IMG/VR virus record: IMGVR_UViG_3300032241_002220
Span: 1 to 25,375 of that record
Direction: 5' to 3' (one strand)
Length of the DNA stretch: 25,375 nt
Origin: a virus
Shown here in pieces: positions 4,236 to 18,195 of this stretch (within the stretch, counting starts at the first letter, position 1; every line of letters starts with the position of its first letter). The position numbers and the translations under genes are program-made. Under the pieces are notes generated by a model, which was given only the letters and a program-made list of their open reading frames with translations, made no database searches and was not told the DNA's origin.

Positions 4236-5033
4236 ATGAATAAAAAAATAAAAGTTTCACATGAAGTTCCTTTTGATTTATTGGATATAAGTGCTGAGTT
4301 CAATGATTACGATTATTGTTTACCTCATTTATTAGACGAAAGTGAACAATATTTAGAATATTTTAAATGGGCTAAAGCAAATGGTCGTTATATTATAATG
4401 GATAATTCACTTCATGAATTAGGTACCGCTTATAATACAGATCGTTTATTATATTGGGTAAATGAGTTAAAACCAAACGAATTCATTATTCCAGATGTTT
4501 GGGAAAATAAAACTCAATCAATCATTAATGCTAGAAAATGGGCTAGTATTCAATTACCTGAAGAAATAACTAAAGTAGCTGTTGTACAATTTAATTTTAT
4601 AACAGATGCTACTGAATGTTACCAAACATATAAAGATCTAGGTTATAAAAAGATAGCATTTTCATATGGTGCTTCTTGCTATAACCTAATTTCATCTCAT
4701 CCAAATAAAGATATGGGTAAAGCATTAGGTAGAATTGAATTAATATCTAAACTTTATAAAAATAGAATAATATCATCAACCGACAGAGTACATTTATTAG
4801 GATGTGCTGTACCACAAGAATTTGGTTGGTATGATGATATGCCTTTTATTGAAAGTATTGATACATCAAATCCAATTATGGCTGCTTTAGAAGGTACAGC
4901 TTATAATTTTGGTTTAAATACTAAACCTAAAATCAATATGAATCAAGCTCAAACTTGGCCTATTGATGAAATTAATTTAGATTTGGTATATCACAATGTT
5001 GATGTTTTTAGATTAATAAACAACTTAAATTAA
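4236..5033 (+). CDS. dpdA: DpdA-like 7-deazaguanine DNA transglycosylase
   Basis: A 265-residue protein of the tRNA-guanine-transglycosylase-like fold. It most resembles phage DpdA, which exchanges guanine in DNA for a 7-deazaguanine base. Features seen: IIMDNSLHELG (residues 53-63, candidate catalytic Asp56), IPDVWEN (85-91), VVQFNF (116-121), VHLLGCAVPQEF (185-196) and SIDTSNPI (207-214, candidate second catalytic Asp209). The Cys-rich zinc site of tRNA Tgt is absent, as expected for short DNA-acting DpdA proteins. Neighbouring QueC-like, QueD, QueE and FolE genes supply the base. I recall that several phage DpdA subfamilies are described, but I cannot assign this one by eye. A tRNA target is the main alternative. 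Confidence 0.8.
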   Translation: MNKKIKVSHEVPFDLLDISAEFNDYDYCLPHLLDESEQYLEYFKWAKANGRYIIMDNSLHELGTAYNTDRLLYWVNELKPNEFIIPDVWENKTQSIINARKWASIQLPEEITKVAVVQFNFITDATECYQTYKDLGYKKIAFSYGASCYNLISSHPNKDMGKALGRIELISKLYKNRIISSTDRVHLLGCAVPQEFGWYDDMPFIESIDTSNPIMAALEGTAYNFGLNTKPKINMNQAQTWPIDEINLDLVYHNVDVFRLINNLN

Positions 5034-5272
5034 ATATAATATGACAGAATTTATTTCACTTTACGATTATTTAGGAAAACCAGCAGGATCTGCTCTAGGT
5101 AAAAAAGTCTACCAGTTTTCACAAATTATAGGGGCTAAAACTAGTTGCAAAAGGATATCCTATTCACCATACAGAGATGGTATTATTATGACCTATGAAA
5201 AGAGCACATTGCAAAAATATTTCGAGGTTGAATCCTTGTTTAAATCATAATTAAATTAAATATAATATGACA
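5025..5272 (+). repeat. 22-bp direct repeat at two start regions
   Basis: Positions 5025-5046 and 5251-5272 are identical over 22 bases. Each copy spans an A/T-rich leader, the start codon and the second codon (ATGACA) of a small gene (5041 and 5267). The proteins are not similar beyond MT, so the copy is of the translation start region, not of the gene. Confidence 0.85.
5041..5250 (+). CDS. Hypothetical protein (69 aa)
   Basis: I do not recognise this small basic protein. It has a single Cys, no membrane segment, and many Tyr and Lys residues in an alternating pattern that suggests a small beta-rich or alpha/beta fold. It starts seven bases after the dpdA-like stop and belongs to the same transcript. 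Its initiation region is an exact copy of the one used by the next small gene. Confidence 0.65.
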   Translation: MTEFISLYDYLGKPAGSALGKKVYQFSQIIGAKTSCKRISYSPYRDGIIMTYEKSTLQKYFEVESLFKS

Positions 5273-5437
5273 AAATTAGATGATATAGTTTTAAAAACTA
5301 AAAAACCACAAGGCAATATTAATCCTGTATTTGAAGAAGAATTAGTAAAAGTATTACAACAAATTTGGGATAACCGATTTAATGTCAGTCATTCTATGTT
5401 AAAAATACTTAAACACGTTGCAAATAAAAAATCTTAA
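5267..5437 (+). CDS. Hypothetical protein (56 aa), upstream of QueC-like gene
   Basis: A short open frame starting MTKLDDIVLK and ending in HVANKKS, bounded by ATG at 5267 and TAA at 5435-5437, directly before the ATG of the QueC-like gene (one base between). The spacing, the shared 22-bp start region and the absence of any other use for this 190-base gap support it being real. The sequence is charged and probably helical (FEEELVKVLQQIW). No family is recognised. Confidence 0.65.
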   Translation: MTKLDDIVLKTKKPQGNINPVFEEELVKVLQQIWDNRFNVSHSMLKILKHVANKKS

Positions 5438-5438
5438 T

Positions 5439-6332
5439 ATGAAAAAACAAGTAGTAATATCATTATCAGGGGGTATGGATTCAAGTACTCTACTCCTACA
5501 TTACCTATCATCCGGTTACCAATGTACTTGTATCTCATTTGATTATGGTCAAAAACATAAAGTTGAATTAGAGCGAGCAACTGAATTAGTACACTATATA
5601 AACAGTAATATATCAAACAATGTTAAACATCAGATTATCAAATTAGATGGTTTAGCTCAATTATTAAATTCATCATTGGTAGAAGGTGGAGAAGATGTTC
5701 CTGAAGGTCACTATGCTGAAGAAAACATGAAAGCAACTGTAGTACCAAATCGCAATAAAATATTTGGTAGTATTGCTCAAGCAATAGCATTATCTATTGC
5801 TACTCAAACAAATAATGAATGTAAAATTGCTTTAGGTATTCATGCTGGAGACCATAGTATTTATCCTGATTGTAGACAAGAGTTTAGAGATGCTGACTAT
5901 AAAGCATTTTTGTTAGGAAATTGGGATTCACATTTAGTAACATACGATGCTCCATTTTTACAAGTTGATAAATTTGATATTTTAAAACATGGATTAGAAT
6001 GTTGTGAGCAATTAGGTTTAGATTTTGATGAAGTATATAAACGTACTAACACAAGTTATAAACCAATTTTAATTGAAACTAAAGCATCTTTAGGAACAAT
6101 AGAATTTGAGCATGGTGGGATAATCCATAAACTCCCACAAGAAGCAACAGTATACAGTGAATGGTACTCTGATTATAAATCAGCATCATCTGTAGAACGA
6201 ATAGAGGCATTTATTAAGTTAGGACGTCCTGATCCTGTAGCATATGCTGATGAAACTGGTCCTGTATCTTGGGAAGTAGCTAAAGCTCATGTTGAACATA
6301 TTTTATCAAATCATTTGGCTATTAAAAACTAA
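5439..6332 (+). CDS. queC: QueC-like ATP-dependent enzyme lacking zinc cysteines
   Basis: A 297-residue PP-loop enzyme of the QueC family, which uses ATP on 7-carboxy-7-deazaguanine (CDG) to form preQ0. The start is the ATG at 5439. SGGMDSS at residues 10-16 is the ATP loop, and FDYGQKHKVE, VVPNRNKIF and YPDCRQEF are QueC signatures. Classical QueC binds zinc through four Cys (TCY and CxxCxxC near the C-terminus). Here they are replaced: TNTSY stands for T.TCY, and SASSVERIEAF for the CxxC-xxR region, and the last ~90 residues have no Cys. An insertion of about 35 residues separates these two segments, so it is longer than the usual ~225 aa. It may be a preQ0 synthase variant or a CDG-converting enzyme with a different product. 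I recall a QueC-related CDG decarboxylase called DpdL but cannot test that match. Confidence 0.85.
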   Translation: MKKQVVISLSGGMDSSTLLLHYLSSGYQCTCISFDYGQKHKVELERATELVHYINSNISNNVKHQIIKLDGLAQLLNSSLVEGGEDVPEGHYAEENMKATVVPNRNKIFGSIAQAIALSIATQTNNECKIALGIHAGDHSIYPDCRQEFRDADYKAFLLGNWDSHLVTYDAPFLQVDKFDILKHGLECCEQLGLDFDEVYKRTNTSYKPILIETKASLGTIEFEHGGIIHKLPQEATVYSEWYSDYKSASSVERIEAFIKLGRPDPVAYADETGPVSWEVAKAHVEHILSNHLAIKN

Positions 6333-6345
6333 TATTGTATATTTA
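6314..6345 (+). promoter_or_regulatory. Promoter, Bacteroidetes-type (24-bp box offset)
   Basis: TTTGGCTATT at 6314 and TATATTTACC at 6338 have exactly 24 bases between starts. The -33 box is within the last codons of the QueC-like gene. The next ATG is only five bases after the -7 box, so transcription would begin at or next to the start codon (possible leaderless mRNA). Confidence 0.75.
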
Positions 6346-6350
6346 CCGGT

Positions 6351-6554
6351 ATGAGAAGAAGAAGAGATTTAGAAACTGAACCTTTTTATGTTGTGTTGAA
6401 TCAACAAGGAGAAGTATTTATAGGACTAAAACAAGGTAGACCTGTATATTCACCTAATTGGAGTGAAGCAAAACCCCTAAATAGCAGCAATACAACAATG
6501 CTTAAATACCTTAATCAAAAAATTGAATTAATTAAAGAAGAAGAATTTATATGA
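6351..6554 (+). CDS. Hypothetical protein (67 aa)
   Basis: A small soluble protein starting with a very basic stretch (MRRRRDLE) and ending acidic (ELIKEEEFI). The middle, FYVVLNQQGEVFIGLKQGRPVYSPNWSEAKPL, looks like a short beta-hairpin domain. No family is recognised. It has its own promoter whose -7 box ends five bases before the ATG, so the mRNA may be leaderless. It is followed by a GIY-YIG gene that begins about 40 bases later. Confidence 0.65.
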   Translation: MRRRRDLETEPFYVVLNQQGEVFIGLKQGRPVYSPNWSEAKPLNSSNTTMLKYLNQKIELIKEEEFI

Positions 6555-6592
6555 TTTTGGTGTGATCCTTGATTTTAATAATATGTATAACC

Positions 6593-7261
6593 ATGGAATA
6601 TACTAAAATATATTATTTACACAATGGTGATAACATACCTTTTTATATAGGGAAAACAAATGGAAATCTTATAGGTAGATTATCTGGTCACAAAATAAGA
6701 TTAAAAACTAATTTTTTAAAAATAGAGTTGATAGATGAAGTTTATGTTAATGAATGGAAATTCTGGGAATCGTGGTATATTGAATTATTTAAATCATGGG
6801 GGTTTAAGTTAGAAAATAAAAATAAAGGAGGGGGTGGTTTGGAATACCATTCTTATTTAACCAAAATTAAAATAAGTAAATCTAAAATAGGAAAACCTAA
6901 TCCTTTCAAAGGTATATCTAAATCAAAAGAATTTGGAGATATGATAAAAAATCATCCAACACGTGGTAAAAAAATAAGCGAATCTAATATGGGTAAAATC
7001 CATTCTAATAGAGGAAAACCATTTACTGAAGAACACAAACAGAAAATTAAATTAACTAGAGATTTTTTAAAAAATAGAAAAAATACATGGCAAAACACTC
7101 CAGTAATCCAATATGATCTTCAAGGTAATTTTATAAAAGAATGGAATTCGCAAAAAGAAGCATCTATTTTTTTAAAAACTAAAGGTGATGGGGTTGGAGC
7201 CTGTTGTAGAGGAAAACAAAAATCTGCTTATGGGTTTATTTGGAAATTTAAAACAAATTAA
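6593..7261 (+). CDS. GIY-YIG homing endonuclease with NUMOD repeats
   Basis: A 222-residue homing endonuclease, start taken at the ATG at 6593 (MEYTKIYYL) rather than an in-frame TTG at 6569. IYYLHNGDNIPFYIGKT gives the GIY and YIG strands, and a conserved WESWYIELFKSWGF holds the expected catalytic Glu. NUMOD3-like pieces follow (KISKSKIGKPNPFKG, GKPFTEEHKQKI) and a C-terminal NUMOD1-type module (IQYDLQGNFIKEW to FIWKFKTN). The last 50 bases around its stop are nearly identical to the end of the third GIY-YIG gene and contain the promoter of the thioredoxin gene. It lies between two intact genes in the modification region. Confidence 0.9.
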   Translation: MEYTKIYYLHNGDNIPFYIGKTNGNLIGRLSGHKIRLKTNFLKIELIDEVYVNEWKFWESWYIELFKSWGFKLENKNKGGGGLEYHSYLTKIKISKSKIGKPNPFKGISKSKEFGDMIKNHPTRGKKISESNMGKIHSNRGKPFTEEHKQKIKLTRDFLKNRKNTWQNTPVIQYDLQGNFIKEWNSQKEASIFLKTKGDGVGACCRGKQKSAYGFIWKFKTN

Positions 7262-7270
7262 TTATATTTA
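7221..7270 (+). repeat. 50-bp endonuclease-tail/promoter repeat, copy 1
   Basis: This segment matches 17820-17869 at about 46 of 50 positions. It covers the last 13 codons of the GIY-YIG gene (AYGFIWKFKTN), the stop codon and the whole -33/-7 promoter that follows. The conservation continues past the stop codon, so it is not explained by protein similarity alone. Confidence 0.85.
7239..7270 (+). promoter_or_regulatory. Promoter embedded in GIY-YIG 3' end
   Basis: TTTGG at 7239 lies within the codons for IWK of the endonuclease, and TATATTTA at 7263 follows its stop, exactly 24 bases apart. It would drive the thioredoxin at 7283 and the genes after it. Confidence 0.75.
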
Positions 7271-7282
7271 AAATAAAAAATT

Positions 7283-7528
7283 ATGAGACAATTATTCTTT
7301 TTTCATGCTTCATGGTGTCAACCGTGTAAAGCCTTTAGTCCTATAATGGACCAAATTTCAAAACAAATCCCCGTGAAAAAAATCAACATCGATTACGAAC
7401 CCGATGTAAACGGTAGATTTAATGTATCTAGTATTCCTACTGTAATACTTGTGGAAAATGAACGAGAAGTTCGTAGATTTGTAGGTGTTAAATCTTACAA
7501 TGAAGTAATGGATTTTATAAAAGGTTAA
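7283..7528 (+). CDS. Thioredoxin/glutaredoxin-like protein
   Basis: An 81-residue minimal thioredoxin-fold protein. HASWCQPCKAF puts the redox pair at Cys12 and Cys15, and SIPTVIL supplies the cis-proline loop near residue 56. It is shorter than host thioredoxin (~105 aa), as usual for phage forms. The likely role is thiol-disulfide exchange, for example feeding a ribonucleotide reductase (none is in this window) or other enzymes. It is encoded four bases before queD and carries a promoter at the end of the upstream GIY-YIG gene. A second thioredoxin lies at 11307. Confidence 0.88.
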   Translation: MRQLFFFHASWCQPCKAFSPIMDQISKQIPVKKINIDYEPDVNGRFNVSSIPTVILVENEREVRRFVGVKSYNEVMDFIKG

Positions 7529-7531
7529 AAT

Positions 7532-8011
7532 ATGGGAAGATACATTTCAACAAAAACATTCGACAATTACTCTGTAGCCATCAGACAATGGAAAGCACAA
7601 CACTCACACTGTCAGCTACTCCACGGTTATGGAATTTATTTTAAAGTATGGTTTGCCTCAAATGAACCAATGGAAGAAAATCAACTAGACGATATGAATT
7701 GGATTGTTGATTTCGGTGGCTTTAAAGCACCACCTAAAGGCAATGGTTTAAAAGACTGGATGGACTATATGTGGGATCATACCTTACTAATTGAAAAAGA
7801 CGATCCGTACCTTGATTTCTTCAAATCAGCCGAAATGGAAGGTTTATGCCATGTTCGAGTAATGGATAAAATGGGATGTGAAAGTCTAGCTAAATTAGTT
7901 TATGACAAATTCAACGATGTATTATCTAAAACAGATGCTGGTCGTTGTAAAGTAATCAAAGTAGAATGCTTTGAACATGGAAAAAATTCATCAATTTATC
8001 AAGAAAATTAA
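7532..8011 (+). CDS. queD: QueD-like 6-carboxytetrahydropterin synthase
   Basis: A 159-residue member of the PTPS/QueD family, which converts dihydroneopterin triphosphate to 6-carboxytetrahydropterin. HSHCQLLHGYGI (residues 24-35) holds the catalytic Cys27 and His31, followed by NWIVDFGGFK, WDHTLL and a C-terminal ECFEHGKNSSIY, matching the order of the family. The canonical zinc-binding HGH is HGY here, and the early AAH motif is missing, so metal binding must use other residues such as H24 or H26. I associate this divergent form with other phage and marine QueD-like proteins. The location between thioredoxin and queE, with folE and the QueC-like gene nearby, supports the assignment. Confidence 0.85.
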   Translation: MGRYISTKTFDNYSVAIRQWKAQHSHCQLLHGYGIYFKVWFASNEPMEENQLDDMNWIVDFGGFKAPPKGNGLKDWMDYMWDHTLLIEKDDPYLDFFKSAEMEGLCHVRVMDKMGCESLAKLVYDKFNDVLSKTDAGRCKVIKVECFEHGKNSSIYQEN

Positions 8012-8017
8012 AATAAT

Positions 8018-8305
8018 ATGTGTGTAGTATCAATGGTCGGAGACCACTATAGTGACAAATGGAAACAACCTCAATGGAATGGAACTATAAGTAATGTAAC
8101 TTATAATCCTTCTCAAGTATCAAAAGAAGATTTTGACGCTTTAAAGAAAGACGTAGAAGAAATGAAAAAACTTCTTGAACGCGCTCTTGATTATGATAAA
8201 CGTAACAACGAACCTAACTGTGAAATGGAAGAAAAAGTAGCATTACTTAAAAAAGTAGCAGAATTGGTTGGTGTTAGCTTAGAAGATATATTTCCTAAAC
8301 AATAA
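8018..8305 (+). CDS. Conserved phage hypothetical protein (95 aa)
   Basis: The N-terminus (MCVVSMVGDHYSDKW) is of a type I recall from other T4-like phage hypothetical proteins. The middle (KEDFDALKKDVEEMKKLLERAL) is a predicted coiled coil, and the C-terminus (VALLKKVAELVGVSLEDIF) is a second helical pair. Function is unknown. It lies between queD and queE and may belong to that pathway, but its occurrence elsewhere suggests a more general role. Confidence 0.7.
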   Translation: MCVVSMVGDHYSDKWKQPQWNGTISNVTYNPSQVSKEDFDALKKDVEEMKKLLERALDYDKRNNEPNCEMEEKVALLKKVAELVGVSLEDIFPKQ

Positions 8306-8317
8306 AAATAAAATAAA

Positions 8318-8542
8318 ATGAAGACAATTCTCAGTAATGGAGTTTACTCAAGAGTAGACAATGAAGTGGCTGACCGTGAAGTATCATTCGGTCGAGCTAA
8401 ATTTGCACCTAAATCCGAATGGAAGAAAAATGTTCGTGATATTAAACCAGAAGAAGTAGTTGTAGCCGAAGAAAAAGGTGAAAAAACTAAATCTAGAAAA
8501 GCTGAAAAAGCTCGTAAATTAAAAGCTAAACAAAGACAATAA
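8318..8542 (+). CDS. Hypothetical basic protein (74 aa)
   Basis: A small protein with a highly basic C-terminal third (KTKSRKAEKARKLKAKQRQ), likely to bind nucleic acid or be disordered. The N-terminal part has no recognisable motif. It is in the queD-queE cluster, one base before the zinc-finger gene. No function is inferred. Confidence 0.65.
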   Translation: MKTILSNGVYSRVDNEVADREVSFGRAKFAPKSEWKKNVRDIKPEEVVVAEEKGEKTKSRKAEKARKLKAKQRQ

Positions 8543-8543
8543 T

Positions 8544-8729
8544 ATGGAAGCTAATATTTCAAAACAAATTATTATGTGCGAGCGTTGTAAAGGCGAAGGT
8601 CAAGAATATAAACGTACTTCTCATTATGATAGCGAATATGTTATTTGTGAAGCCTGTAACGGTTCAGGTAGATTAGTTAAAGAAACAACCGTTAAATATT
8701 ATCCATTTAAAAACAACAATAATGAGTAA
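8544..8729 (+). CDS. DnaJ-type zinc-finger protein (61 aa)
   Basis: Two CxxCxGxG-type motifs, CERCKGEGQ (from residue 12) and CEACNGSGR (from residue 35), form one DnaJ-like zinc ribbon, with no J-domain. Such mini-proteins occur in phages and in DnaJ-like contexts, where the ribbon binds unfolded protein or assists zinc transfer. It overlaps the start of queE by eight bases, so it is translated with it. Whether it helps fold QueE or another partner is unknown. Confidence 0.75.
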   Translation: MEANISKQIIMCERCKGEGQEYKRTSHYDSEYVICEACNGSGRLVKETTVKYYPFKNNNNE

Positions 8730-9555
8730 AATAGATCCAAACAAACTACTTATCAGTAGCGACTTCTACTCAGTACAAGGAGAAGGTATTAGTACAGGTA
8801 TCCCATCTTACTTTATCAGATTAGGTTTATGTAATTTAACTTGTGGTATGAGCAATAAATTCCTCAACCAACTTGTTAAAGACAAAAAACTAGAAGACGG
8901 AGAAATATTTGTAGGTGATCTACAAGCAGAAGGTAAAGCAACTTGGACTTGCGATTCTACATCACAATGGGCCTGGAGAGGTGAAGATAAAGATTTTCAA
9001 TATTTGATTAATCAGTGGAAAGAACAAGGTATCTATGACGATATTTTAAATGGTACAATTCATATTATTTGGACAGGTGGTGAACCTACAATTAAAGGAC
9101 ATCAAGAAGCTATTGTAAATTTTATTCAATATATGTGGGAATGTGATTCATATAATTATACCCCATTTCATGAAATAGAAACAAATGGAACAAACTATAT
9201 TGAAGATGAACTTTTAAAGTCATTAGACCAAATTAACTGCTCCCCAAAATTATCAAATTCAGGTTTATCAGCTAAACAGCGTATTAATCCAGAGGCTATT
9301 AAACGTATAATGCAACATTCTAATTATCAATTTAAATTCGTAATTTCCAATGAAGAAGATGTACAAGAAATATTCCGTGACTTTATCATACCATTTAGCA
9401 TACCTCTTGCCAACGTGGTTTGTATGCCAGGATTAGATGATGCTGCTAATTTTGAAGAACGAACTCGATTTGTTTTGGAGCTTGCCAAAAAATATCGCTT
9501 CCGCGGTCTTACACGACTGCATATAGCTGCATGGAACAAAACATTAAACGTATAG
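8722..9555 (+). CDS. queE: QueE, radical SAM 7-carboxy-7-deazaguanine synthase
   Basis: A 277-residue radical-SAM enzyme that converts 6-carboxytetrahydropterin to 7-carboxy-7-deazaguanine. YSVQGEGISTGIPSYFIRLGLCNLTC is the family N-terminus, and TGGEPTI is the SAM-binding GGEP motif. HEIETNG and NCSPKLSNSG are further QueE signatures. The [4Fe-4S] cysteines are unusually spaced: Cys37, Cys41 and then Cys77 in WTCDS, with 35 residues inserted where most QueE have two (CxWCDT). The inserted loop is charged (KDKKLEDGEIFVGDLQ). The gene overlaps the zinc-finger gene upstream and ends two bases before smpB. Confidence 0.93.
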   Translation: MSKIDPNKLLISSDFYSVQGEGISTGIPSYFIRLGLCNLTCGMSNKFLNQLVKDKKLEDGEIFVGDLQAEGKATWTCDSTSQWAWRGEDKDFQYLINQWKEQGIYDDILNGTIHIIWTGGEPTIKGHQEAIVNFIQYMWECDSYNYTPFHEIETNGTNYIEDELLKSLDQINCSPKLSNSGLSAKQRINPEAIKRIMQHSNYQFKFVISNEEDVQEIFRDFIIPFSIPLANVVCMPGLDDAANFEERTRFVLELAKKYRFRGLTRLHIAAWNKTLNV

Positions 9556-9557
9556 TT

Positions 9558-9992
9558 ATGATACTTCAGAACCGAAAAGCATATTACAATTACCATATAC
9601 TTGAAGAGTATATAGCAGGAATAATGCTAGTTGGTTCTGAAGTTAAATCTATTCGTAACCATGATATTAATTTTAAAGATAGTTATATTTATATCAACAA
9701 CAATGAAGTATTTGTTAAACAAATGTTTATAGGAAAATATAAACAAGCGGTACATACTAATCATGAAGAAGTTAGAGATAGAAAATTATTGTTAACTAGA
9801 AAACAAATACGAAACATTCAAAAACAGCTTCAAGTAACAGGTATTACATCTGTACCTTTAGAAATATTTGAAATGAGTGGTAAATTTAAAATTAAAATAG
9901 CAATAGCTAAAGGTAAAAAATTATATGATAAACGTGATGTTATCAAAGAAAAAGATATCAAATTACAAACCCAAAGAGAACTTATAAAATAA
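9558..9992 (+). CDS. smpB: SmpB, tmRNA-binding trans-translation protein
   Basis: A 144-residue SmpB homologue, the protein that carries tmRNA to stalled ribosomes. Recognised stretches are NRKAYYNYHILEEYIAGIML, GSEVKSIRNHDINFKDSYI, RDRKLLLTRKQI and KIKIAIAKGKKLYDKRDVIKEKD, in the same order as bacterial SmpB. The C-terminal tail that folds in the decoding centre is present but short. The start is the ATG at 9558, two bases after queE; an in-frame ATG at 9531 inside queE adds nine non-family residues. No tmRNA gene fits in the gene-free gaps of this window. SmpB in a phage may supply host trans-translation or act otherwise. Confidence 0.9.
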   Translation: MILQNRKAYYNYHILEEYIAGIMLVGSEVKSIRNHDINFKDSYIYINNNEVFVKQMFIGKYKQAVHTNHEEVRDRKLLLTRKQIRNIQKQLQVTGITSVPLEIFEMSGKFKIKIAIAKGKKLYDKRDVIKEKDIKLQTQRELIK

Positions 9993-10004
9993 TTATCTAT
10001 CATC

Positions 10005-10667
10005 ATGGATACAAAACCTTATATTTTTAATATTGAATATCAGAACGGACTTCGTATTTCATGTCATGACATAATTAATCCTGATACTGAATTTTGGATT
10101 CGTGTTTATATTAAAGCTCAAAATAGAAATAAAAAATTAATTTGGGAATCTAATAACTCAGGAGGAGCTATTGTAGATGAAATTATTATGAATAATGAAT
10201 CATTTAATATTCCTTTTTTAGAAACATCTATAAAAAATCATCATTTTACAGATTTCTTTTATAAAGGATTTGTTTCATATAATATTGAAATTACTAAACG
10301 TTATACTGAAGAAATAATATATTCTGAATCATTTGATTGTCGTTATAAATTAGTTAATTTTACTTTACATAGTAATGATATTAAAGAATTACATACTTGG
10401 ATGTGTGCTATTAAAAAGTTTAAAGATGAAACTAATTGTGAAATATCAATAATAAATGATTGGATATGGGAAAACAAAGAATATGATTTTGTAGACGCTT
10501 ATTATCGTTTTAAAGATAATTTTAACCAATATTATGCTGGTTATGTTATAGGACGATTTGGTGATGAAAACGCTCCTGATTTTTATAGAAATCCGGATGG
10601 GTTAAAAAACAAAACATCATTAGACATTATTGAAGATATTTTATACCATTTTACTAAGAAATTATGA
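10005..10667 (+). CDS. Hypothetical protein (220 aa)
   Basis: I do not recognise this soluble protein. The first half looks beta-rich with aromatic residues (EFWIRVYIKAQNRNKKLIWES), the second half helical (IKELHTWMCAIKKFKDE, DIIEDILYHFTKKL). There is no signal or membrane segment. The stop overlaps the start of the next gene (ATGA), so the two are probably made together. The mixture of a beta-sandwich-like N-terminal part and a gene paired with a possible glycosyltransferase suggests a carbohydrate-related role, but that is inference. Confidence 0.7.
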   Translation: MDTKPYIFNIEYQNGLRISCHDIINPDTEFWIRVYIKAQNRNKKLIWESNNSGGAIVDEIIMNNESFNIPFLETSIKNHHFTDFFYKGFVSYNIEITKRYTEEIIYSESFDCRYKLVNFTLHSNDIKELHTWMCAIKKFKDETNCEISIINDWIWENKEYDFVDAYYRFKDNFNQYYAGYVIGRFGDENAPDFYRNPDGLKNKTSLDIIEDILYHFTKKL

Positions 10668-11314
10668 ATAATGTTTTAATGATAATGAATGCTCGAAACA
10701 TAGCCCCTTTTAAGGAATGTGTTGATAAATTAAACATTAATAAAGTTTGGTTTAAAGGTTATACTGAATTTGAACTAAATACACATATTAACAAATTTAT
10801 TCAGGAAACAAGTTATGATAATTATTTTTTAGCACCTGATGATTTATTAATTAAAAAACATCATTTTGAATTGTTAGAAAGAAAATTACAACATCATGAT
10901 ATAGTTACTGGTTGGGGTGTTTGGAGACAAAATTATAATTGGACTACAATTTATAAAAAAGATAAATTACACGTGTATTGTCAAGGATCATCATTACCGT
11001 TATTTAAAAAACATTACAACGTAGTTTATACACATGAAATAGACTCCATGCCAAACGAAATAGAAACCGCTTTTACCGGCTGGTTCTATACAGGAGCCAA
11101 ACGCCAAGTATGGTTAGATTATCCTTACCAAACCATTTCAGTAAGTAAAGAACAAAATGTTGCTTCAACAGATTTACATTGGTCTAAAAGAATATTGGAA
11201 GATAAAAAATATAAGCAAATATGTATTAAAGACGCTAGGGTAACTCATATTTCATATATTGGACATGATTACCTGGATTTAAAATTTGATACTAAAGAAA
11301 TCATATATGAATAA
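10664..11314 (+). CDS. Hypothetical protein, possible GT-A glycosyltransferase
   Basis: A 216-residue protein. The pattern is suggestive of a GT-A nucleotide-sugar transferase: an initial beta strand (NVLMIMNARN), a candidate acidic motif (NYFLAPDDLLI, with DD), a TGWFYTG segment, and a late STDLHWSKRILEDKKYKQICIKDARVTHISY resembling the end of such domains. No diagnostic motif is conclusive, so the call is weak. It overlaps the previous gene by four bases and the thioredoxin gene by eight. If real, it could act on modified DNA or on host surface sugars. Confidence 0.5.
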   Translation: MNNVLMIMNARNIAPFKECVDKLNINKVWFKGYTEFELNTHINKFIQETSYDNYFLAPDDLLIKKHHFELLERKLQHHDIVTGWGVWRQNYNWTTIYKKDKLHVYCQGSSLPLFKKHYNVVYTHEIDSMPNEIETAFTGWFYTGAKRQVWLDYPYQTISVSKEQNVASTDLHWSKRILEDKKYKQICIKDARVTHISYIGHDYLDLKFDTKEIIYE

Positions 11315-11588
11315 AAAATTATTAAAAGAATCAATACAACGCAAAGAAAAATCACTATTGTTTTTTAATGCTAGTTGGTGTGGTGTTTGTCAAGATGTTA
11401 ATCCTATAGTAGAACAAATTAGAGAATCAAAACCTGATTATAGATTTTATAACATGAATATTGATGATAGGGATACTGAAGAAATAAGTGAAATATTTGA
11501 AGTTGATTTTATTCCTGTTTTAGTTGTAATATCTGAAACGGGTTATAAAGTTTATGATGGTAAACATCAAATTAAGAAATTACTTTAA
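11307..11588 (+). CDS. Thioredoxin-like protein
   Basis: A 93-residue thioredoxin-fold protein with FFNASWCGVCQDVNP giving Cys25 and Cys28, and FIPVLVV as the cis-proline strand. It resembles the thioredoxin at 7283 only in the fold motifs, so it is a second, divergent copy rather than a recent duplication. An in-frame TTG upstream (11286) would add seven residues, but the ATG at 11307 overlaps the end of the previous gene by eight bases and gives a normal thioredoxin start. Confidence 0.85.
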   Translation: MNKKLLKESIQRKEKSLLFFNASWCGVCQDVNPIVEQIRESKPDYRFYNMNIDDRDTEEISEIFEVDFIPVLVVISETGYKVYDGKHQIKKLL

Positions 11589-11620
11589 TTTGGTTGTATA
11601 AAAATAAGTTATTATATTAT
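11589..11620 (+). promoter_or_regulatory. Promoter, Bacteroidetes-type (24-bp box offset)
   Basis: TTTGGTTGTA at 11589 and TATATTAT at 11613 have 24 bases between starts. The -33 box begins right after the thioredoxin stop. A 21-base A/T leader precedes the folE start, so this promoter likely serves folE, the phosphoribosyltransferase and the small genes after them. Confidence 0.7.
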
Positions 11621-11641
11621 TAGAAATAAAATTTATATTAA

Positions 11642-12277
11642 ATGGAGTTATTGAAAAAATCAAATGGTAGCTTACCACGCACGCAAGAAGAAATCGATAA
11701 TATGATTGATCAAGCTGAAAAAGCGTATGGTGAGTTTCTTACAGCAGTTGGATTTGATTATAAAGCAGATCGTCAAACTGAAGATACACCTCGTCGTGTA
11801 GCCAAAGCATGGCTTAAAGACCTAATTGTAGGTTCAATTACAGATGAACCAAAAATCACAGTATTCCCTAATGATGAAGGATATAGTGGATTAGTAATCC
11901 AATCAGGTATTCCTATTGTTAGTATGTGTGCACATCACAATTTAGCATTTACAGGTTATGCTACTGTAGCTTATGTACCTGGTGAAAATGTAATTGGATT
12001 ATCTAAATTAAATCGTATTGTAGAATGGTTTTCTCGCCGTCCACAAATGCAAGAATCATTAACACAACAAATTCATGATTATATTGCTGATAAAATGAAA
12101 TGTGGTTCAGTAGCAGTAAGTATTGCTTGTAAACATACTTGTTGTTCACATAGAGGTATTAAACATCCTTCAGTAATGACTACAAATAAATTTAGTGGTG
12201 TGTTTATGGAAAAGGATAATTTAATTAGAGAAGAATTTTTACACGCAATTGAAACAAACGCCCCTGCTTTAAAATAA
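11642..12277 (+). CDS. folE: GTP cyclohydrolase I
   Basis: A 211-residue FolE, which opens GTP to dihydroneopterin triphosphate, the first step toward 7-deazaguanine bases. TEDTPRRVAKAW is the family signature. Zinc ligands are seen at Cys96 and His99 (SMCAHHN) and Cys167 (CKHTCCSHRGI), and VIGLSKLNRIVEWF and SRRPQMQESLT follow the family order. Length is normal. It has its own promoter, and its stop overlaps the ATG of the phosphoribosyltransferase. With QueD, QueE and the QueC-like gene it completes a phage-encoded route from GTP. Confidence 0.95.
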   Translation: MELLKKSNGSLPRTQEEIDNMIDQAEKAYGEFLTAVGFDYKADRQTEDTPRRVAKAWLKDLIVGSITDEPKITVFPNDEGYSGLVIQSGIPIVSMCAHHNLAFTGYATVAYVPGENVIGLSKLNRIVEWFSRRPQMQESLTQQIHDYIADKMKCGSVAVSIACKHTCCSHRGIKHPSVMTTNKFSGVFMEKDNLIREEFLHAIETNAPALK

Positions 12278-12681
12278 TGGAAAAGATATATTTAAACTGG
12301 GCTGGTATAGAATCATATATTGATACTTTAGCTTATAAAATAGCAGCAAGTGGAAAACAAGTAACAGTTATTCATGGATTGTCTAGAGGTGGATTAATAC
12401 CCTCAGTATTATTATCTCACAAATTAGGTATTCCTTATGTAAATGATTGGCCTATACTTAAACATTTATATGATCCTAAAACAACACTAATAGTTGATGA
12501 TATTTGCGACTCGGGTAAAACATTAAAACCTTATACTGATTATATTACAGTTACTCTTCACCACAAAACAACAGCTATTGTTGAGCCTACATTTTGGGTT
12601 AAAACAGTAGAAGAAAACGAATGGATTGTTTATCCATGGGAAAGTAAAGAATCACAAACAATTCAAGATTATAAATTATAA
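12277..12681 (+). CDS. Purine phosphoribosyltransferase, Gpt-like
   Basis: A 134-residue type I phosphoribosyltransferase. HGLSRGGLIPSVLLSHKLGIP is the N-terminal loop seen in Gpt. LIVDDICDSGKTL is the PRPP-binding loop, and EWIVYPWE near the end matches the C-terminal W-x-x-x-PW motif of xanthine/guanine phosphoribosyltransferases. It overlaps folE by one base. The likely reaction is guanine (or xanthine) plus PRPP to the nucleotide. In this setting it could recycle guanine released from DNA by the DpdA-like enzyme, which is my inference. Substrate choice cannot be told from sequence. Confidence 0.85.
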   Translation: MEKIYLNWAGIESYIDTLAYKIAASGKQVTVIHGLSRGGLIPSVLLSHKLGIPYVNDWPILKHLYDPKTTLIVDDICDSGKTLKPYTDYITVTLHHKTTAIVEPTFWVKTVEENEWIVYPWESKESQTIQDYKL

Positions 12682-12682
12682 T

Positions 12683-12844
12683 ATGCAACCTAAAGAATCA
12701 AAATCAAGTAGACACTTTAAAATCAGTTTGATTAAATCAATTACAAGAATATTTTCAGGATTATCTTTATGTTTTGGTTTATTACATTTAGCTGGAATAT
12801 TTTTAATATTAGCTGAATTTTTAGGTATAGCAGAAGAATTTTAA
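12683..12844 (+). CDS. Small membrane protein (53 aa)
   Basis: A short protein with a basic N-terminal part (KESKSSRHFKISLIKSITR) followed by a hydrophobic stretch of about 25 residues (GLSLCFGLLHLAGIFLILAEFLG), a single transmembrane helix. It ends in AEEF. The start ATG at 12683 follows the phosphoribosyltransferase stop by one base. No family is recognised, and a role in envelope or superinfection immunity is possible but not supported by any motif. Confidence 0.65.
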   Translation: MQPKESKSSRHFKISLIKSITRIFSGLSLCFGLLHLAGIFLILAEFLGIAEEF

Positions 12845-12854
12845 AATAAATAAA

Positions 12855-13307
12855 ATGATAACAATATACGCACATAAAACCCATCCAGATGCAGTTATAC
12901 CAACTGTAGCATATGGTTCAACATCAGCATGTTTTGATATAACATGCACTGAAACAACAACAATCCCTGCTAGAGGTAAAGCAGTAGTACCAAATGGTTT
13001 AAACCTAACAATCCCAGATAATTTAAATTATTGGATGCAAATTCAATTACGTTCTAGTAAAGGTTTCAAACATGATTTGGTACCTCATTACGGAACAGTA
13101 GATGCTGGTTACACAGGAAATTTAGGTATTAAAGTTTACAACTTAGGTGATACTGACGTAGTAATTGAAAAAGGTGAAAAATACGCTCAAATAGCTGTTA
13201 TTGAAAGACCTGAATATGAAATTATTGAACTAAACGATCAAGAATTTGAGTCATTTAAAACAACTCAACTTCGTGGAGATAGCGGATTTGGTTCAAGTGG
13301 AAAATAA
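12855..13307 (+). CDS. dut: dUTPase
   Basis: A 150-residue trimeric-type dUTP nucleotidohydrolase, which hydrolyses dUTP to dUMP and keeps uracil out of phage DNA. The five family motifs appear in order: ACFDIT, LRSSKGF, GTVDAGYTGN, QIAVIERPEYE and RGDSGFGSSG. The Asp and Tyr of motif 3 and the C-terminal phosphate-clamping arm are intact, so it should be active. It lies upstream of the DNA polymerase, which fits a nucleotide-supply role at replication. Confidence 0.95.
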   Translation: MITIYAHKTHPDAVIPTVAYGSTSACFDITCTETTTIPARGKAVVPNGLNLTIPDNLNYWMQIQLRSSKGFKHDLVPHYGTVDAGYTGNLGIKVYNLGDTDVVIEKGEKYAQIAVIERPEYEIIELNDQEFESFKTTQLRGDSGFGSSGK

Positions 13308-13327
13308 ACAATTAAAATAAATATAAA

Positions 13328-13621
13328 ATGTCAACATTACACGAAAAATTTAATCAATTAAAAGAAATCATTCAAAGATCAAATCCAAACCCTCAATTTG
13401 GAGCAATGATGCAAGCCGTAAATGAACTAGAAGCAGCTTTACCTGCTAAAATTGATAACGCTGAAATATCTACTCTTAATGCTATGGTAGATACAAGTAG
13501 AGAACCTTTTATTCATCCTCCAGTTGAAGTAAATGAAATACCTTTAACACCTAAGAAAGGAGCTAAGAAAAAATCAACTTCTACAGACGAAACATCGACT
13601 GAAGAAGCATCAGCACAATAA
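13328..13621 (+). CDS. Hypothetical protein (97 aa)
   Basis: A helix-rich N-terminal half (HEKFNQLKEIIQRSNPNPQFGAMMQAVNELEAAL) and a C-terminal low-complexity tail rich in Lys, Ser, Thr and Glu (KKGAKKKSTSTDETSTEEAS). No family is recognised. It lies between dUTPase and the polymerase, with an A/T-rich leader, and is probably co-transcribed with them. Confidence 0.65.
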   Translation: MSTLHEKFNQLKEIIQRSNPNPQFGAMMQAVNELEAALPAKIDNAEISTLNAMVDTSREPFIHPPVEVNEIPLTPKKGAKKKSTSTDETSTEEASAQ

Positions 13622-13644
13622 TTAATTAAAAAAGGTTTTATATA

Positions 13645-16239
13645 ATGTATCAAGCAATTTATTTTGACAGGGAAGAAAAACAATATTATCTTAGAGATGA
13701 TGAAAAAGGATGGAAATCATTTCAATATTGGCCCACTTACTATTATCCAGACGAAGATGGTGAATTTGAAACATTGGATGGTAACAGAGTAAGCCCTGTT
13801 AAAAGAATAAAAGATTGGAATGACACCAACTATTATGAAAAAGATGTAGACAAATGTACACGATTGCTTGTTGATTATTATTATGAATCTGATGAAACCC
13901 CAAATCATCACAATATTATTTACTTAGATATTGAGTGTGAAATAGCAGGAGCGTTAACTGAAGATAGTATTAAAAACGCTCCTACTAAAATCACATCTGT
14001 TGCTTTATATGATAATAACAGTAAAAAATATTACTGTTTGATTCTAGATGAAGCAAAATTAATGAAGAAAGTAAATGATAAAAGTAAAGAAGTAATTCCT
14101 TATCATAATGAAAAAGAATTACTTGATGGTTTCCTAGACATTTGGATTGATTTAGACCCAACCATTATTACAGGATGGAATAGTGGATTTTTTGATATTC
14201 CTTATTTATATTATCGCATTAGTAAAGTATTGGGAGAATCAAAAGCCAATATGCTATCACCATTAGGTAAAGTACATTTTACACCCCAATTTCCAGAACA
14301 ACCCGTTAATTTAGCAGGTATTAATCACCTAGATTATATGTTGTTGTTTAAGAAATTTATTACTAAACAGGAACCAAGTTATCGTTTAGGTGATATAGGT
14401 ACAAAATATGTTAATTTAGGTAAAATTGATTATAAAGGTTCATTGGATAAATTATTTAAAGAAGACGTAAATAAGTTTATTGAATATAATATTCGTGACG
14501 TTGAAATTATTGTTGAATTAGAAAAAAGTCAAAAATTTATTGATTTAACAGTAGCTATTGCTCACTTATGTCATACAGAATATGAACAAATTTATTTTTC
14601 AACAATGTTAAATGAAGGAGCAATTTTAACCTATTTAAAACGTAGAGGTATTGTTTCTCCAAATAAACCAACAACTTATAATCCTGCCTTAAAAGAATTA
14701 AAAGAAGAATATGCCGGTGGATATTTAAAAGATCCGGTTCCTGGTTTATACGAGTGGGTTATTGATCTAGATTTTACATCACTGTATCCTTCAATTATTC
14801 GTTCTTTAAACATGGGAATTGAAACATTAGTAGGACGTGTTGTAAATAAAGGTAAATTTGATAATCAATGGTCTCTTAAGGAATTAAAGGAAATGAATCC
14901 TGAAACTATTGTTACTGTTGAAAAAGTAAAAAAAGACAAACGATTATCTCAAGCTCAAATTTCTATAGGTAAATTAATTGAATTAATAGAAGAAAATAAT
15001 CTATTAATATCAGCACCTGGTGTTATGTTCCGTAAGGATAAAGCAAGTGTGGTTTGTGAAATTTTATCTGATTGGTTTGATAAACGTCAAGAGTATAAAA
15101 AATTGATGAGAAAAGCATTTAAAGAAGATAAAGATCCGGTTATGGGTGAATTTTACAATCGCCAACAACACGCATATAAAATTAAATTAAACGACGTCTA
15201 TGGTGTATTCGCGATAAATGGTTGGAGATATACAGACGGAAATAAATTCATTTCTAAAGCGATTACTTTAACAGGTCAACGTTTAATCCAAGAATCCATT
15301 AAATTTACAAATAATTGGATGAATGAACAGTTAGGCACTGATGGTAAAGATTATATTGTAACCTCTGATACCGACTCATTATTTATTCAAGTTAAAGACC
15401 TAATACTACAACGCAACCCAGAATTAAAAGGTGCTAGTCGTGAAGAAATTACTGCTGAAGTATTAAAAGTGGCTACTGAAATACAAAAATTAGCAAATGC
15501 TCATCTTCATGTTTTGGTTAAGGAATTATTTAATGTTGATTATCCTAATGAGCCTCATTATTTTGAATTAAAACAAGAAGTTGTACTTGAACGAGGTTAT
15601 TTTTCAGGTAAAAGAAGATACGCTCAATTTATAGTAAATAAAGAAGGTGTACCTGTAGAAGAATTAGATATGAAAGGTTTAGATTTGATGAAATCTAATT
15701 TCCCACCATTGTTTAAAAACTTTGGAGAACATATCCTTAAGGAATTAATGTTTGGTAAAACTAAATCTTCTATTGATAAACAAATACTTGATTTTAGAAC
15801 ATCGCTACGAACCGTAGAATGGGAAAAAATACTTAAACCAACAGGTTTAAAACATTTAGAAGGTTATATTGCTCGAGGTCCTGGAGCTGGTGAAATATTT
15901 TCAAAATTAGCATTAAAGTGTCCTATTAATACTAAAGCAGCAATTTATTTTAATGATTTGGTTCGTTTTAAAAAGCTAGACAAAAAATACCCTACATTTC
16001 AAATTGGTGATAAAATGTTTATAGCTTATTTAAAAGAAAATCCATATAAAATAGATGTTATAGGATTTAACGGATATAATGATCCTCCAGAAATAATGGA
16101 ATTTATTGAAAAATATATTGACCGTGATGGTATATTTGAATCTGTTATGAAGAATAAATTAGAATCGGTTTATGCTGATTTAGGGTGGGGTTCACCTGTA
16201 TTTAACAATAATGTAAGTAAGTTTTTTACATTTGGCTAA
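13645..16239 (+). CDS. DNA polymerase, family B (T4 gp43-like)
   Basis: An 864-residue replicative DNA polymerase of the T4 gp43 type with 3'-5' proofreading. Exonuclease motifs: YLDIECE with D95 and E97, TGWNSGFFDIPYL with D184, and YNIRDVEI with Y281 and D285. Polymerase motifs: DLDFTSLYPS with D376, KLNDVYG at 514-520, and SDTDSLFI with D575 and D577. GKRRYA stands for the KKRY motif. All catalytic acids are intact. The clamp gene follows immediately and the clamp loader about 4 kb later, the T4 replisome set. The last codons carry an inverted repeat and the next promoter's -33 box. Confidence 0.97.
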   Translation: MYQAIYFDREEKQYYLRDDEKGWKSFQYWPTYYYPDEDGEFETLDGNRVSPVKRIKDWNDTNYYEKDVDKCTRLLVDYYYESDETPNHHNIIYLDIECEIAGALTEDSIKNAPTKITSVALYDNNSKKYYCLILDEAKLMKKVNDKSKEVIPYHNEKELLDGFLDIWIDLDPTIITGWNSGFFDIPYLYYRISKVLGESKANMLSPLGKVHFTPQFPEQPVNLAGINHLDYMLLFKKFITKQEPSYRLGDIGTKYVNLGKIDYKGSLDKLFKEDVNKFIEYNIRDVEIIVELEKSQKFIDLTVAIAHLCHTEYEQIYFSTMLNEGAILTYLKRRGIVSPNKPTTYNPALKELKEEYAGGYLKDPVPGLYEWVIDLDFTSLYPSIIRSLNMGIETLVGRVVNKGKFDNQWSLKELKEMNPETIVTVEKVKKDKRLSQAQISIGKLIELIEENNLLISAPGVMFRKDKASVVCEILSDWFDKRQEYKKLMRKAFKEDKDPVMGEFYNRQQHAYKIKLNDVYGVFAINGWRYTDGNKFISKAITLTGQRLIQESIKFTNNWMNEQLGTDGKDYIVTSDTDSLFIQVKDLILQRNPELKGASREEITAEVLKVATEIQKLANAHLHVLVKELFNVDYPNEPHYFELKQEVVLERGYFSGKRRYAQFIVNKEGVPVEELDMKGLDLMKSNFPPLFKNFGEHILKELMFGKTKSSIDKQILDFRTSLRTVEWEKILKPTGLKHLEGYIARGPGAGEIFSKLALKCPINTKAAIYFNDLVRFKKLDKKYPTFQIGDKMFIAYLKENPYKIDVIGFNGYNDPPEIMEFIEKYIDRDGIFESVMKNKLESVYADLGWGSPVFNNNVSKFFTFG

Positions 16240-18180: not shown

Positions 18181-18195
18181 AAATAAATAAGTTAT

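Follow-up and report, generated by a model that had tools for sequence, protein, structure and literature searches.

An uncultured virus was found to carry a compact set of genes with which, we think somewhat probably, the phage makes its own 7-deazaguanine and swaps preQ0 for guanine in its own DNA by means of a zinc-free QueC and a class A DpdA. The window, i.e., the whole stretch of DNA that was analysed, comprises 25,375 nt of IMG/VR record IMGVR_UViG_3300032241_002220, the full length of which is 89 kb. The system is of a known kind; the enzyme variant, the zinc-free QueC, is new.

Organization of the gene cluster

Genes for DpdA, a QueC-like protein, QueD, QueE, FolE, and a phosphoribosyltransferase were all identified by family and profile matches on the plus strand between positions 4236 and 12681. 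The original prediction had placed the first five of these between 4236 and 12277, where all five were found; the cluster reaches one gene further, to the phosphoribosyltransferase adjoining FolE. It opens with the DpdA-like DNA guanine transglycosylase of class A (4236 to 5033; 265 amino acids; phrog_19058 [PHROG 19058], E 9.6e-35), followed by a small conserved protein without assigned function (5041 to 5250) that carries an SLYDYLG..AG..LG motif. The latter had no match in a Pfam search and 79 homologous ORFs in the searched set, and it lies near QueC or DpdA; 28 of the 46 QueC loci that extend 5 kb to either side contain it. The zinc-free QueC (PF06508, E 1.3e-39) occupies positions 5439 to 6332, the ATG at 5439 being a more likely start than the opening of the ORF at 5418, to judge from relatives that start with MKK. 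A homing endonuclease of the NUMOD3/NUMOD1 type (6569 to 7261; PF07460, 1.2e-6; phrog_314, 1.3e-6) splits the cluster, and the redox genes said to be interspersed in it proved to be two thioredoxins, at 7283 to 7528 (PF00085, 1.1e-15) and 11286 to 11588 (PF00085, 6e-11).

QueD (6-carboxytetrahydropterin synthase; 7532 to 8011) matched PF01242 (1.6e-10) and phrog_2389 (2.4e-33) and scored 24.7 bits against the TIGR03367 equivalog, under its cutoff of 89.25. QueE, the radical SAM 7-carboxy-7-deazaguanine synthase (8722 to 9555; phrog_2076, 8.7e-40), passed the cutoff of no NCBIfam QueE model; its radical SAM cysteines Cys37, Cys41, and Cys77 are kept in 117/117 aligned sequences, and the spacing between the second and third of them is unusual, at 35 residues in the window protein and in 53 of the 117. 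FolE (GTP cyclohydrolase I; 11642 to 12277; phrog_2197, 1.4e-59) reached 164.9 bits with NF006824, under the cutoff of 202. The phosphoribosyltransferase (12277 to 12681; PF00156, 1e-9) is of the xanthine/guanine type by its best match (NF006613, 5.9e-13; 48.7 bits, under the cutoff of 138); in 23 of 47 distinct loci, FolE is no more than 1.5 kb away from it. The 89-kb record also encodes a carbamoyltransferase, and sugar-transfer-like genes were spotted in it by eye.

Recurrence in related viruses

IMG/VR was searched for loci of uncultured viruses by DpdA or QueC, and the 159 loci fetched were thus picked by these two genes; the best 80 of 144 (DpdA) and the best 80 of 233 (QueC) confirmed stretches were retained. 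In these best-80 sets, DpdA and QueC were both present in 143 of the 159 loci and, within the fetched stretch, lay on the same strand in all 143. Of the 46 distinct QueC loci flanked on either side by 5 kb or more, 41 contain QueD and 44 contain QueE, and the gene order repeats, with variations, over the IMG/VR loci. The recurring cluster in related loci, together with the family matches, rules out chance or an annotation artefact.

Proposed pathway

The first step would be the conversion of GTP to dihydroneopterin triphosphate by FolE, from which QueD would form 6-carboxytetrahydropterin and QueE 7-carboxy-7-deazaguanine (CDG). With ATP and ammonia, the zinc-free QueC would convert CDG to preQ0, and the class A DpdA would excise guanines from the phage DNA, inserting preQ0 instead, and host restriction enzymes would then read their sites poorly. 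The phosphoribosyltransferase may recycle the guanine released by DpdA. Insertion into DNA and restriction resistance are suggested by analogy with the families concerned. The original prediction held that the set seemed complete on the phage genome; FolE, QueD, QueE, and QueC, which would lead from GTP to the QueC product, are indeed all on the phage record, making independence from the host queuosine pathway plausible.

A QueC clade without the zinc site

The QueC-like step had been called atypical, and indeed the zinc site is missing. In place of its four cysteines stand S213, D252, S255, and S258 (numbering from 5418); no canonical C(x)8CxxCxxC site is left, and a variable insert precedes its former position. 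Serine, aspartate, serine, and serine stand at these positions in 121/121 distinct aligned sequences (duplicates, eight truncated QueC rows, and rows gapped at any of the four positions excluded), which rules out a sequencing error or a pseudogene. Against TIGR00364, the QueC equivalog, the window protein scored 132.7 bits and did not reach the cutoff of 150.3. Zinc is stated as required for QueC, and a 2026 survey treats the cysteine motif as characteristic of the family (PMC13329287).

Structure comparison of the window protein gave a VIA Z of 18.0 to QueC 3bl5. In the alignment of 144 QueC sequences, which contains one zinc-type outlier (nt-1) that cleared the length filter, the SGGxDS ATP loop is kept (S17, G18, G19, and D21 in 144/144 and S22 in 143/143), as are Y43, V109, P110, R112, N113, Y149, D151, and Y214 (all 144/144). 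In the window protein, the motifs read YGQKHKVE (YxQxHxxE), VPNRN (VPxRN), and YPDC, and Y214 is the equivalent of Escherichia coli Y189. This signature has been tested by mutation, the Y35A, R99A, Y131A, and Y189A variants being reported inactive (PMC13329287). Canonical QueC, cluster 1 of PF06508 in the survey, has its fold and catalytic motifs in common with the window protein but possesses the zinc site. Two other clusters described there, LarE-like cluster 3 and GMP synthase cluster 6, are also without C(x)8CxxCxxC, but they lack or replace the QueC catalytic motifs that the window clade keeps (PMC13329287).

The loss of the zinc site is a single change on a QueC tree built without the zinc columns. 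This was the most carefully built of our trees; long outgroup branches were flagged in it, and the Thiotrichales branch is long, with a position inside the phages that was not starred. Eight cellular genomes, which may be incomplete, were compared. In 7/7 Poseidoniales-like archaeal genomes, 6 of which contain a tRNA TGT, the one full-length PF06508 match belongs to the zinc-free clade, as does the sole full-length QueC match of Thiotrichales 19S3-11, the genome of which has TGT, QueF, and QueA. In this bacterium, the pathway, if active, has to pass through preQ0. Phages with QueF (19 of the 159 loci, from the best 80 of 144 and best 80 of 233) use the same zinc-free clade, and at E 1e-10 exactly one QueC match and no second was found in each of 44 phage records searched (the 45 records of 29 to 183 kb considered below, minus L059 and L083, plus G000). 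With catalytic motifs kept and the clade providing the sole full-length QueC match both in the archaeal genomes and in a bacterium with TGT, QueF, and QueA, the zinc-free QueC most likely still makes preQ0 from CDG.

The DpdA-like protein

The protein encoded at 4236 had been predicted to be DpdA-like and not to belong with tRNA Tgt or an unrelated family. It has no match to the tRNA Tgt family PF01702 at E 0.1, and its kinship is supported by 33% identity to a protein annotated as DpdA in Flavobacterium phage vB_FspM_immuto_3-5A (immuto) and by a model that matches TGTs and the DNA preQ0 insertase DpdA (7ui4); identity to the best-covered Campylobacter phage homologues is 33 to 37%. When PDB sequences were searched with a DpdA profile, the top matches were designed TIM barrels, and 7ui4, the true relative, appeared only at E 0.32, so a fold comparison was needed. 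The model (mean pLDDT, 96) is predicted to adopt a TGT-like TIM-barrel fold (Foldseek E 1.5e-8), with VIA Z of 17.3 to 17.9 to TGTs and 7ui4, including 17.9 to TGT 1iq8 and 17.6, over 231 residues at 17% identity, to 7ui4, a structure of 413 residues versus 265 for the window protein. The comparison matches tRNA TGT and DpdA equally and does not tell the two apart. D56, D87, and H186 are present in 153/153 aligned sequences and D209 in 152/152, the latter aligning with the aspartate of the S.D site that Seurat and Arbiter have in their DpdA1-type proteins; these aspartates are presumably the catalytic ones. Base exchange in DNA by the class A DpdA is suggested by analogy.

DpdA class and QueF

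The DpdA sequences fall into two classes that track QueF. Within the best-80 sets (of 144 and 233), QueF was found in 0/133 class A loci, the class of the window, and in 19/20 class B loci, the sole class B locus without it being cut by its contig end; presence was scored inside the fetched stretch, and whole records were searched for 45. The class profiles were made from 20 DpdA sequences, and most of these were later classified with the same profiles; the DpdA tree, built from rows of less than 75% identity, is independent of class labels. QueC does not track QueF: the QueF label changes 11 times on the QueC tree versus a shuffled mean of 12.4, i.e., it is nearly unclustered. The quick trees used for the DpdA classes and for QueF on QueC have modest support, and the meeting of long branches was flagged for phiST/MA9V-3 and the outgroups.

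Of the 45 whole records of 29 to 183 kb, 39 showed no QueF; 4 of the 6 true QueFs in the remainder were below the Pfam cutoff and were recognised by frame. The presumed catalytic Cys and Asp are kept in 18/18 full-length phage QueF proteins. The 89-kb record of the window showed no QueF (the only match was below the cutoff and inside FolE) and no formyltransferase. A formyltransferase alone is not diagnostic, since one class A record (L117) has a formyltransferase-domain frame at 66472 to 66765 without QueF; in 2 of the 19 QueF loci (L122 and L123), the fetched stretch lacks a formyltransferase. No real exception to the agreement of DpdA class, gene order, and QueF was seen in the sampled loci. 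A zinc-free QueC was also considered as a mark of a different product, in view of the 7-carboxy-7-deazaguanine decarboxylase DpdL; DpdA3 and DpdA4 are names of DpdA subfamilies. Among the papers listed for DpdL, DpdA3, DpdA4, DpdN, mdPreQ1, and fdPreQ1, none dealt with them.

Without QueF, reduction of the base to preQ1 is improbable, and the pairing of class A with the absence of QueF, against that of class B with its presence, makes preQ0 the most likely insert. The comparative evidence points to preQ0; preQ1 and its derivatives are disfavoured because the record yielded no QueF. The virus records come with no completeness value, and the 89-kb record may be a fragment, beyond which a QueF or other modifying gene could lie.

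Identity of the base and other roles for the genes

The main rival to preQ0 is 7-amido-7-deazaguanine (ADG), which the same pathway would yield if DpdA took an intermediate of QueC or if the zinc-free QueC let go before the nitrile-forming second step. It owes this rank to the Campylobacter phages CP220 and CPt10, which carry the closest DpdA homologues with a measured base (33.6% identity) and in which dADG is reported to make up 100% of dG, and not dPreQ0 (PMC8306585). Loss of the zinc site could conceivably truncate the QueC reaction, but the QueC of CPt10 is of the zinc type, and its ADG therefore does not stem from zinc loss. The DpdA of CP220 falls outside the class A clade, and the zinc-free clade serves phages with a QueF that keeps the presumed catalytic residues as well as the bacterium with QueF, TGT, and QueA. 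ADG is a serious but unlikely candidate. Less probable still is another or further decorated 7-deazaguanine made by unrecognised phage genes, for which the cluster offers several ORFs without known function (e.g., 5041 to 5250), with many more around it, and the record its carbamoyltransferase and sugar-transfer-like genes. Other DNA bases reportedly described in 2023 are dCDG, dDG, and methyl- and formyl-preQ1. Neither QueF nor a formyltransferase was found in the 89-kb record, however, and its gene content is the minimal set giving dPreQ0 in Escherichia phage CAjan and Mycobacterium phage Rosebush, in which about 28 to 32% of G is reported to be replaced (PMC6884629).

Two further proposals concern the role of the proteins. 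That the enzymes feed host tRNA queuosine or folate metabolism in infection, with the 4236 protein acting on tRNA, draws on a fold as close to tRNA TGT as to DpdA. TGTs carry a CxCxxC motif for zinc; the translation of the 265-residue window protein has none, nor has it a PF01702 match, and its kin are the protein annotated as DpdA in immuto and the protein of CP220, a phage reported to be fully dADG modified (PMC8306585), all of which makes a tRNA role very improbable. We give least credence to the idea that the QueC-like protein modifies proteins by deazaguanylation, as do Cap9 and QatC, and does not make a base. This was considered for the structural match, since these are as close as QueC (VIA Z, 17.6 and 17.9 versus 18.0), and divergence of PF06508 into such functions is published (PMC13329287, PMC13279940, PMC11996544). 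Cap9 and QatC as described keep the zinc cysteines, however, and the window clade has no Cys at the positions of the CE(x)6CxxCxxCxD motif of Cap9, the QueC-like protein of type IV CBASS (PMC13329287). Identity is highest to QueC (28 to 30%, versus 21% for Cap9 and 14 to 15% for QatC), QueE and QueD are nearby in 44 and 41 of the 46 QueC loci, and the bacterium with TGT, QueF, and QueA has its sole full-length QueC match from this clade.

Related phages and host

The gene set of the window is most closely paralleled in immuto, which also has FolE, QueD, QueE, DpdA, and a phosphoribosyltransferase adjoining FolE and whose QueC, 58.8% identical to that of the window, is likewise zinc free. Compared with the window phage, the additional genes of immuto are those for a two-domain QueF, a formyltransferase, and a kinase-like protein beside DpdA; the immuto DpdA itself falls not in the class A clade but with class B. 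In CP220 and CPt10, the genes are scattered over the genome. Seurat and Arbiter, relatives of CAjan and Rosebush, have DpdA proteins distant from that of the window and a QueC with four zinc cysteines. The Bacteroidota-type promoter motif TANNTTTG was not enriched (40 found versus 47 expected) and hence gives no evidence of the host, which may be surmised only from the kinship to the Flavobacterium phage immuto.

Implications

More tentatively, and with slightly less belief than doubt, we suggest that a zinc-independent QueC arose once and is common to marine Poseidoniales-like archaea, many aquatic phages, and at least one bacterium (perhaps from a phage), being a working preQ0 synthase with Ser/Asp/Ser/Ser in place of zinc. 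In the phages, it would form a fixed upstream module with two interchangeable outputs, namely, a class A DpdA alone, placing preQ0 into DNA, or a class B DpdA with QueF, formyltransferase, and kinase, giving preQ1 derivatives. If so, DpdA class and gene order alone would predict the DNA base of uncultured phages. With its catalytic motifs kept, its zinc site lost once, and its place as the lone QueC of genomes in which preQ0 seems to be needed, the zinc-free clade would open the role of that zinc to direct testing. The agreement of DpdA class with QueF would give a sequence rule for the guanine analogue of uncultured phages, one that bears on escape from restriction and on the reading of environmental virus DNA.

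Gene content of the modification cluster

The virus record is 89,375 bases long, the window being its first 25,375 bases. A 7-deazaguanine cluster was found on the plus strand at 4236-12681, in the order DpdA-like, 69-amino-acid (aa) ORF, 56-aa ORF, QueC-like, 67-aa ORF, homing endonuclease, thioredoxin, and QueD, followed by three small ORFs, QueE, SmpB, two unknown ORFs, a second thioredoxin, FolE, and a phosphoribosyltransferase. The five genes named in the original prediction (DpdA-like, QueC-like, QueD, QueE, and FolE) were confirmed by family-model matches, even though scores stayed under several NCBIfam equivalog cutoffs. Systems in which a phage encodes 7-deazaguanine synthesis together with DpdA are already established, and Flavobacterium phage vB_FspM_immuto_3-5A (immuto) is a sequenced and annotated relative. 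No match to QueF, formyltransferase, or QueC profiles was found in the record outside the window. Across the whole record, the sole match in a Pfam QueF search lay inside FolE and below the cutoff, and a formyltransferase search gave no match.

In QueE (8722-9555), the second and third radical-SAM cluster cysteines are separated by 35 residues; among 117 homologues, this spacing is 35 in 53 and 7 in 55. QueD (7532-8011) carries HGY where other QueDs, such as that of phage Seurat, have HGH, and its Tyr33 is shared by all 112 aligned homologues and also by phages phiST and phi38:2. In 23 of the 47 distinct loci that have 3 kb on both sides, the phosphoribosyltransferase is found no more than 1.5 kb from FolE, and it adjoins FolE in immuto as in the window; its conserved acidic loop (D74, D75, D78, G80, and T82) is intact in 54 of 54 sequences. 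Because base exchange frees one guanine per modified position, a plausible role for this enzyme is to recycle the guanine into GTP by way of GMP. Thioredoxin was found in 37 of 46 loci, and a small protein with the motif SLYDYLG..AG..LG (5041-5250, plus strand), which had no match in a Pfam search, in 28 of 46; this small protein lies near QueC or DpdA and has 79 homologous ORFs in the set searched. Inside the cluster is also a complete SmpB homologue (9531-9992, plus strand; TIGR00086 and NF003843 above cutoff); the set searched held SmpB in only 8 sequences, window included. ARAGORN detected no tmRNA in the window.

Homing-endonuclease-like ORFs in the window number three (1673-2290, 6569-7261, and 17183-17860), the middle one with a NUMOD3 match and the other two recognized by eye. 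GroES and GroEL look-alikes were seen in translations of 17881-19812, and both proteins are annotated in immuto as well. DUF1599, "nucleotide modification associated domain 1," matches at 21671-22054 (7e-7). Genes resembling those for sugar transfer, judged by eye, run through 24095-25375, with weak glycosyltransferase matches, and continue at 25533-34052 of the whole record. A carbamoyltransferase lies at record position 38159-39805 (12784-14430 of the part beyond the window, L004; PF16861, 4e-53; PF02543, 1e-37).

A QueC without zinc cysteines

Canonical QueC binds zinc through four cysteines, C(x)8CxxCxxC, which are described as kept across QueC, QatC, and Cap9 in the available text of PMC13329287 and PMC13279940. 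These cysteines are absent from the QueCs of the window and of immuto. All 121 distinct QueCs with a resolved zinc region, from the window, immuto, and the IMG/VR loci, carry Ser, Asp, Ser, and Ser in the positions of window residues 213, 252, 255, and 258 (counting from 5418, where the ORF opens). The equivalents of the E. coli QueC residues Y35, R99, Y131, and Y189, essential by mutation according to PMC13329287, are all kept. The structural model (pLDDT 88) scored Z 18.0 against QueC 3bl5 (28% identity), Z 17.9 against QatC (14-15%), and Z 17.6 against Cap9 (21%).

Zinc-less PF06508 clusters have been described, namely, LarE-like and GMP synthase, both without canonical QueC motifs (PMC13329287, available text). 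A zinc-less clade retaining those motifs is not mentioned in the accessible parts of PMC13329287, where ten clusters were analyzed, or of PMC13279940, nor does one appear among the listed titles and abstract openings on QueC in relation to zinc binding, phages, and preQ0. As far as these searches show, the clade of zinc-free QueCs, cellular members included, is new.

The transglycosylase class, QueF, and the predicted base

The protein encoded at 4236 had no Pfam TGT match. It is 33% identical to the DpdA-annotated protein of immuto and, among its best-covered matches, 33 to 37% identical to unnamed proteins of Campylobacter phages (CP220, CPt10, CP21, and others); a protein of Cellulophaga phage phiST matched weakly (22.5%). 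With its AlphaFold2 model (mean pLDDT, 96.0; 46-sequence alignment), Foldseek returned TGTs at the top (E, 1.5e-8) and the DNA preQ0 insertase DpdA 7ui4 at rank 46 (5.3e-7). VIA-align gave Z 17.9 to TGT 1iq8 and Z 17.6 to 7ui4 (17% identity over 231 residues), scores that are ties. All 153 aligned relatives share D56, D87, and H186, and D209 is likewise invariant (152 of 152); D209 lines up with the equivalent Asp in the DpdA1-type proteins that phages Seurat and Arbiter encode.

Among 159 IMG/VR loci, sampled as the best 80 per query, QueF was found in 19, of which 17 also carried a formyltransferase within the fetched stretch; neither gene occurred in a fetched stretch lacking DpdA and QueC (0 of 159). 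When 45 whole records (29 to 183 kb) were searched, QueF was present in 6, always at the local QueF cassette, and the matches in 12 further records were frames of FolE length (211 to 248 aa). All 18 full-length phage QueFs keep the C...D region that surrounds the presumed catalytic Cys, these residues being assigned from the QueF literature. The DpdA tree places the QueF-negative proteins in a single clade (43 rows; starred, 97), and the QueF-positive proteins, from six loci and immuto, fall outside it in two groups. By profile assignment, again among the best 80 per query, QueF occurs in 0 of 133 class A loci and in 19 of 20 class B loci, the exception (L137) being a contig whose end is no more than about 0.9 kb away from where DpdA starts. 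DpdA precedes QueC in all 123 QueF-less loci holding both genes, and QueC precedes DpdA in all 20 class B loci. The two classes are separated at thirteen positions, several adjoining D56 and D87; class-specific residues include 53, 55, 59, 83, 89, and 115. At position 115, 104 of 109 class A sequences have Ala, and all 17 class B sequences have Gly. On the QueC tree, QueF-positive sequences are scattered, requiring 11 changes, at least 4 of them forced by starred branches. Since QueF tracks DpdA class and gene order and is scattered on the QueC tree, the choice of base is followed by the transglycosylase and not by QueC. Within the literature searched, this DpdA-class/QueF rule appears to be new. 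In G032, a class A virus record that has no QueF, a formyltransferase domain was also seen at 66472-66765, some 20 kb away from its QueC.

The window phage has a class A DpdA and no QueF in its record. For class B phages such as immuto, the prediction would be a preQ1-type base. In phages CAjan and Rosebush, FolE/QueD/QueE/QueC/DpdA, as a minimal set, yielded dPreQ0 (PMC6884629, available text), and we lean toward preQ0 as the base in the DNA of the window phage. That the base is instead 7-amido-7-deazaguanine (ADG) seems rather unlikely; this reading draws on CP220 and CPt10, which, among phages whose base has been measured, carry the nearest relatives of the DpdA and are reported at 100% dADG in the accessible portion of PMC8306585.

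Cellular relatives of the zinc-free QueC

A scan of genome contigs with the zinc-free QueC alignment recovered 24 relatives, of which four (three Marinobacter and one Opitutaceae) have the zinc cysteines. Seven are archaeal: four of the genomes bear the title Poseidoniales or Poseidoniaceae (Marine Group II) and three the title Euryarchaeota, whose QueCs join the former in one clade. In all seven, the order is FolE-QueE-QueC-QueD and QueC lacks the zinc cysteines. At the one archaeal locus examined, a Poseidoniaceae QueC flanked by cellular genes is fused to a SelR/MsrB domain (L189, 7902-9155), and the similar length of its sister proteins (380 to 407 aa) suggests that the fusion is general in the clade. 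With thioredoxin also lying near QueC in phages, there may be a redox link to QueC. One further relative, also with cellular genes on its flanks, is that of Thiotrichales bacterium 19S3-11.

In a tree built with the zinc columns removed, the zinc state changes once. The archaea form a separate clade (100/97), and Thiotrichales 19S3-11 joins the phages (99/97), its long branch falling within them at a place that is not starred. Seven contigs from MAG bins, with titles such as Pelagibacter and Flavobacteriales, group with the phage QueCs; four carry DpdA, and these contigs are probably viral sequences within bins.

In the seven archaea and Thiotrichales 19S3-11, no PF06508 match apart from the zinc-free QueC is full length. 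The remaining matches extend over at most the N-terminal third of the model, in frames of 316 to 328 or 590 to 601 aa, and some pass the family cutoff only when summed along the frame. TGT was found in six of the seven archaeal genomes, and Thiotrichales 19S3-11 encodes TGT (5.7e-164), QueF (9.4e-23), and QueA (4.2e-129). If the cells of these eight genomes make archaeosine or queuosine from GTP, the zinc-free QueC must make preQ0.
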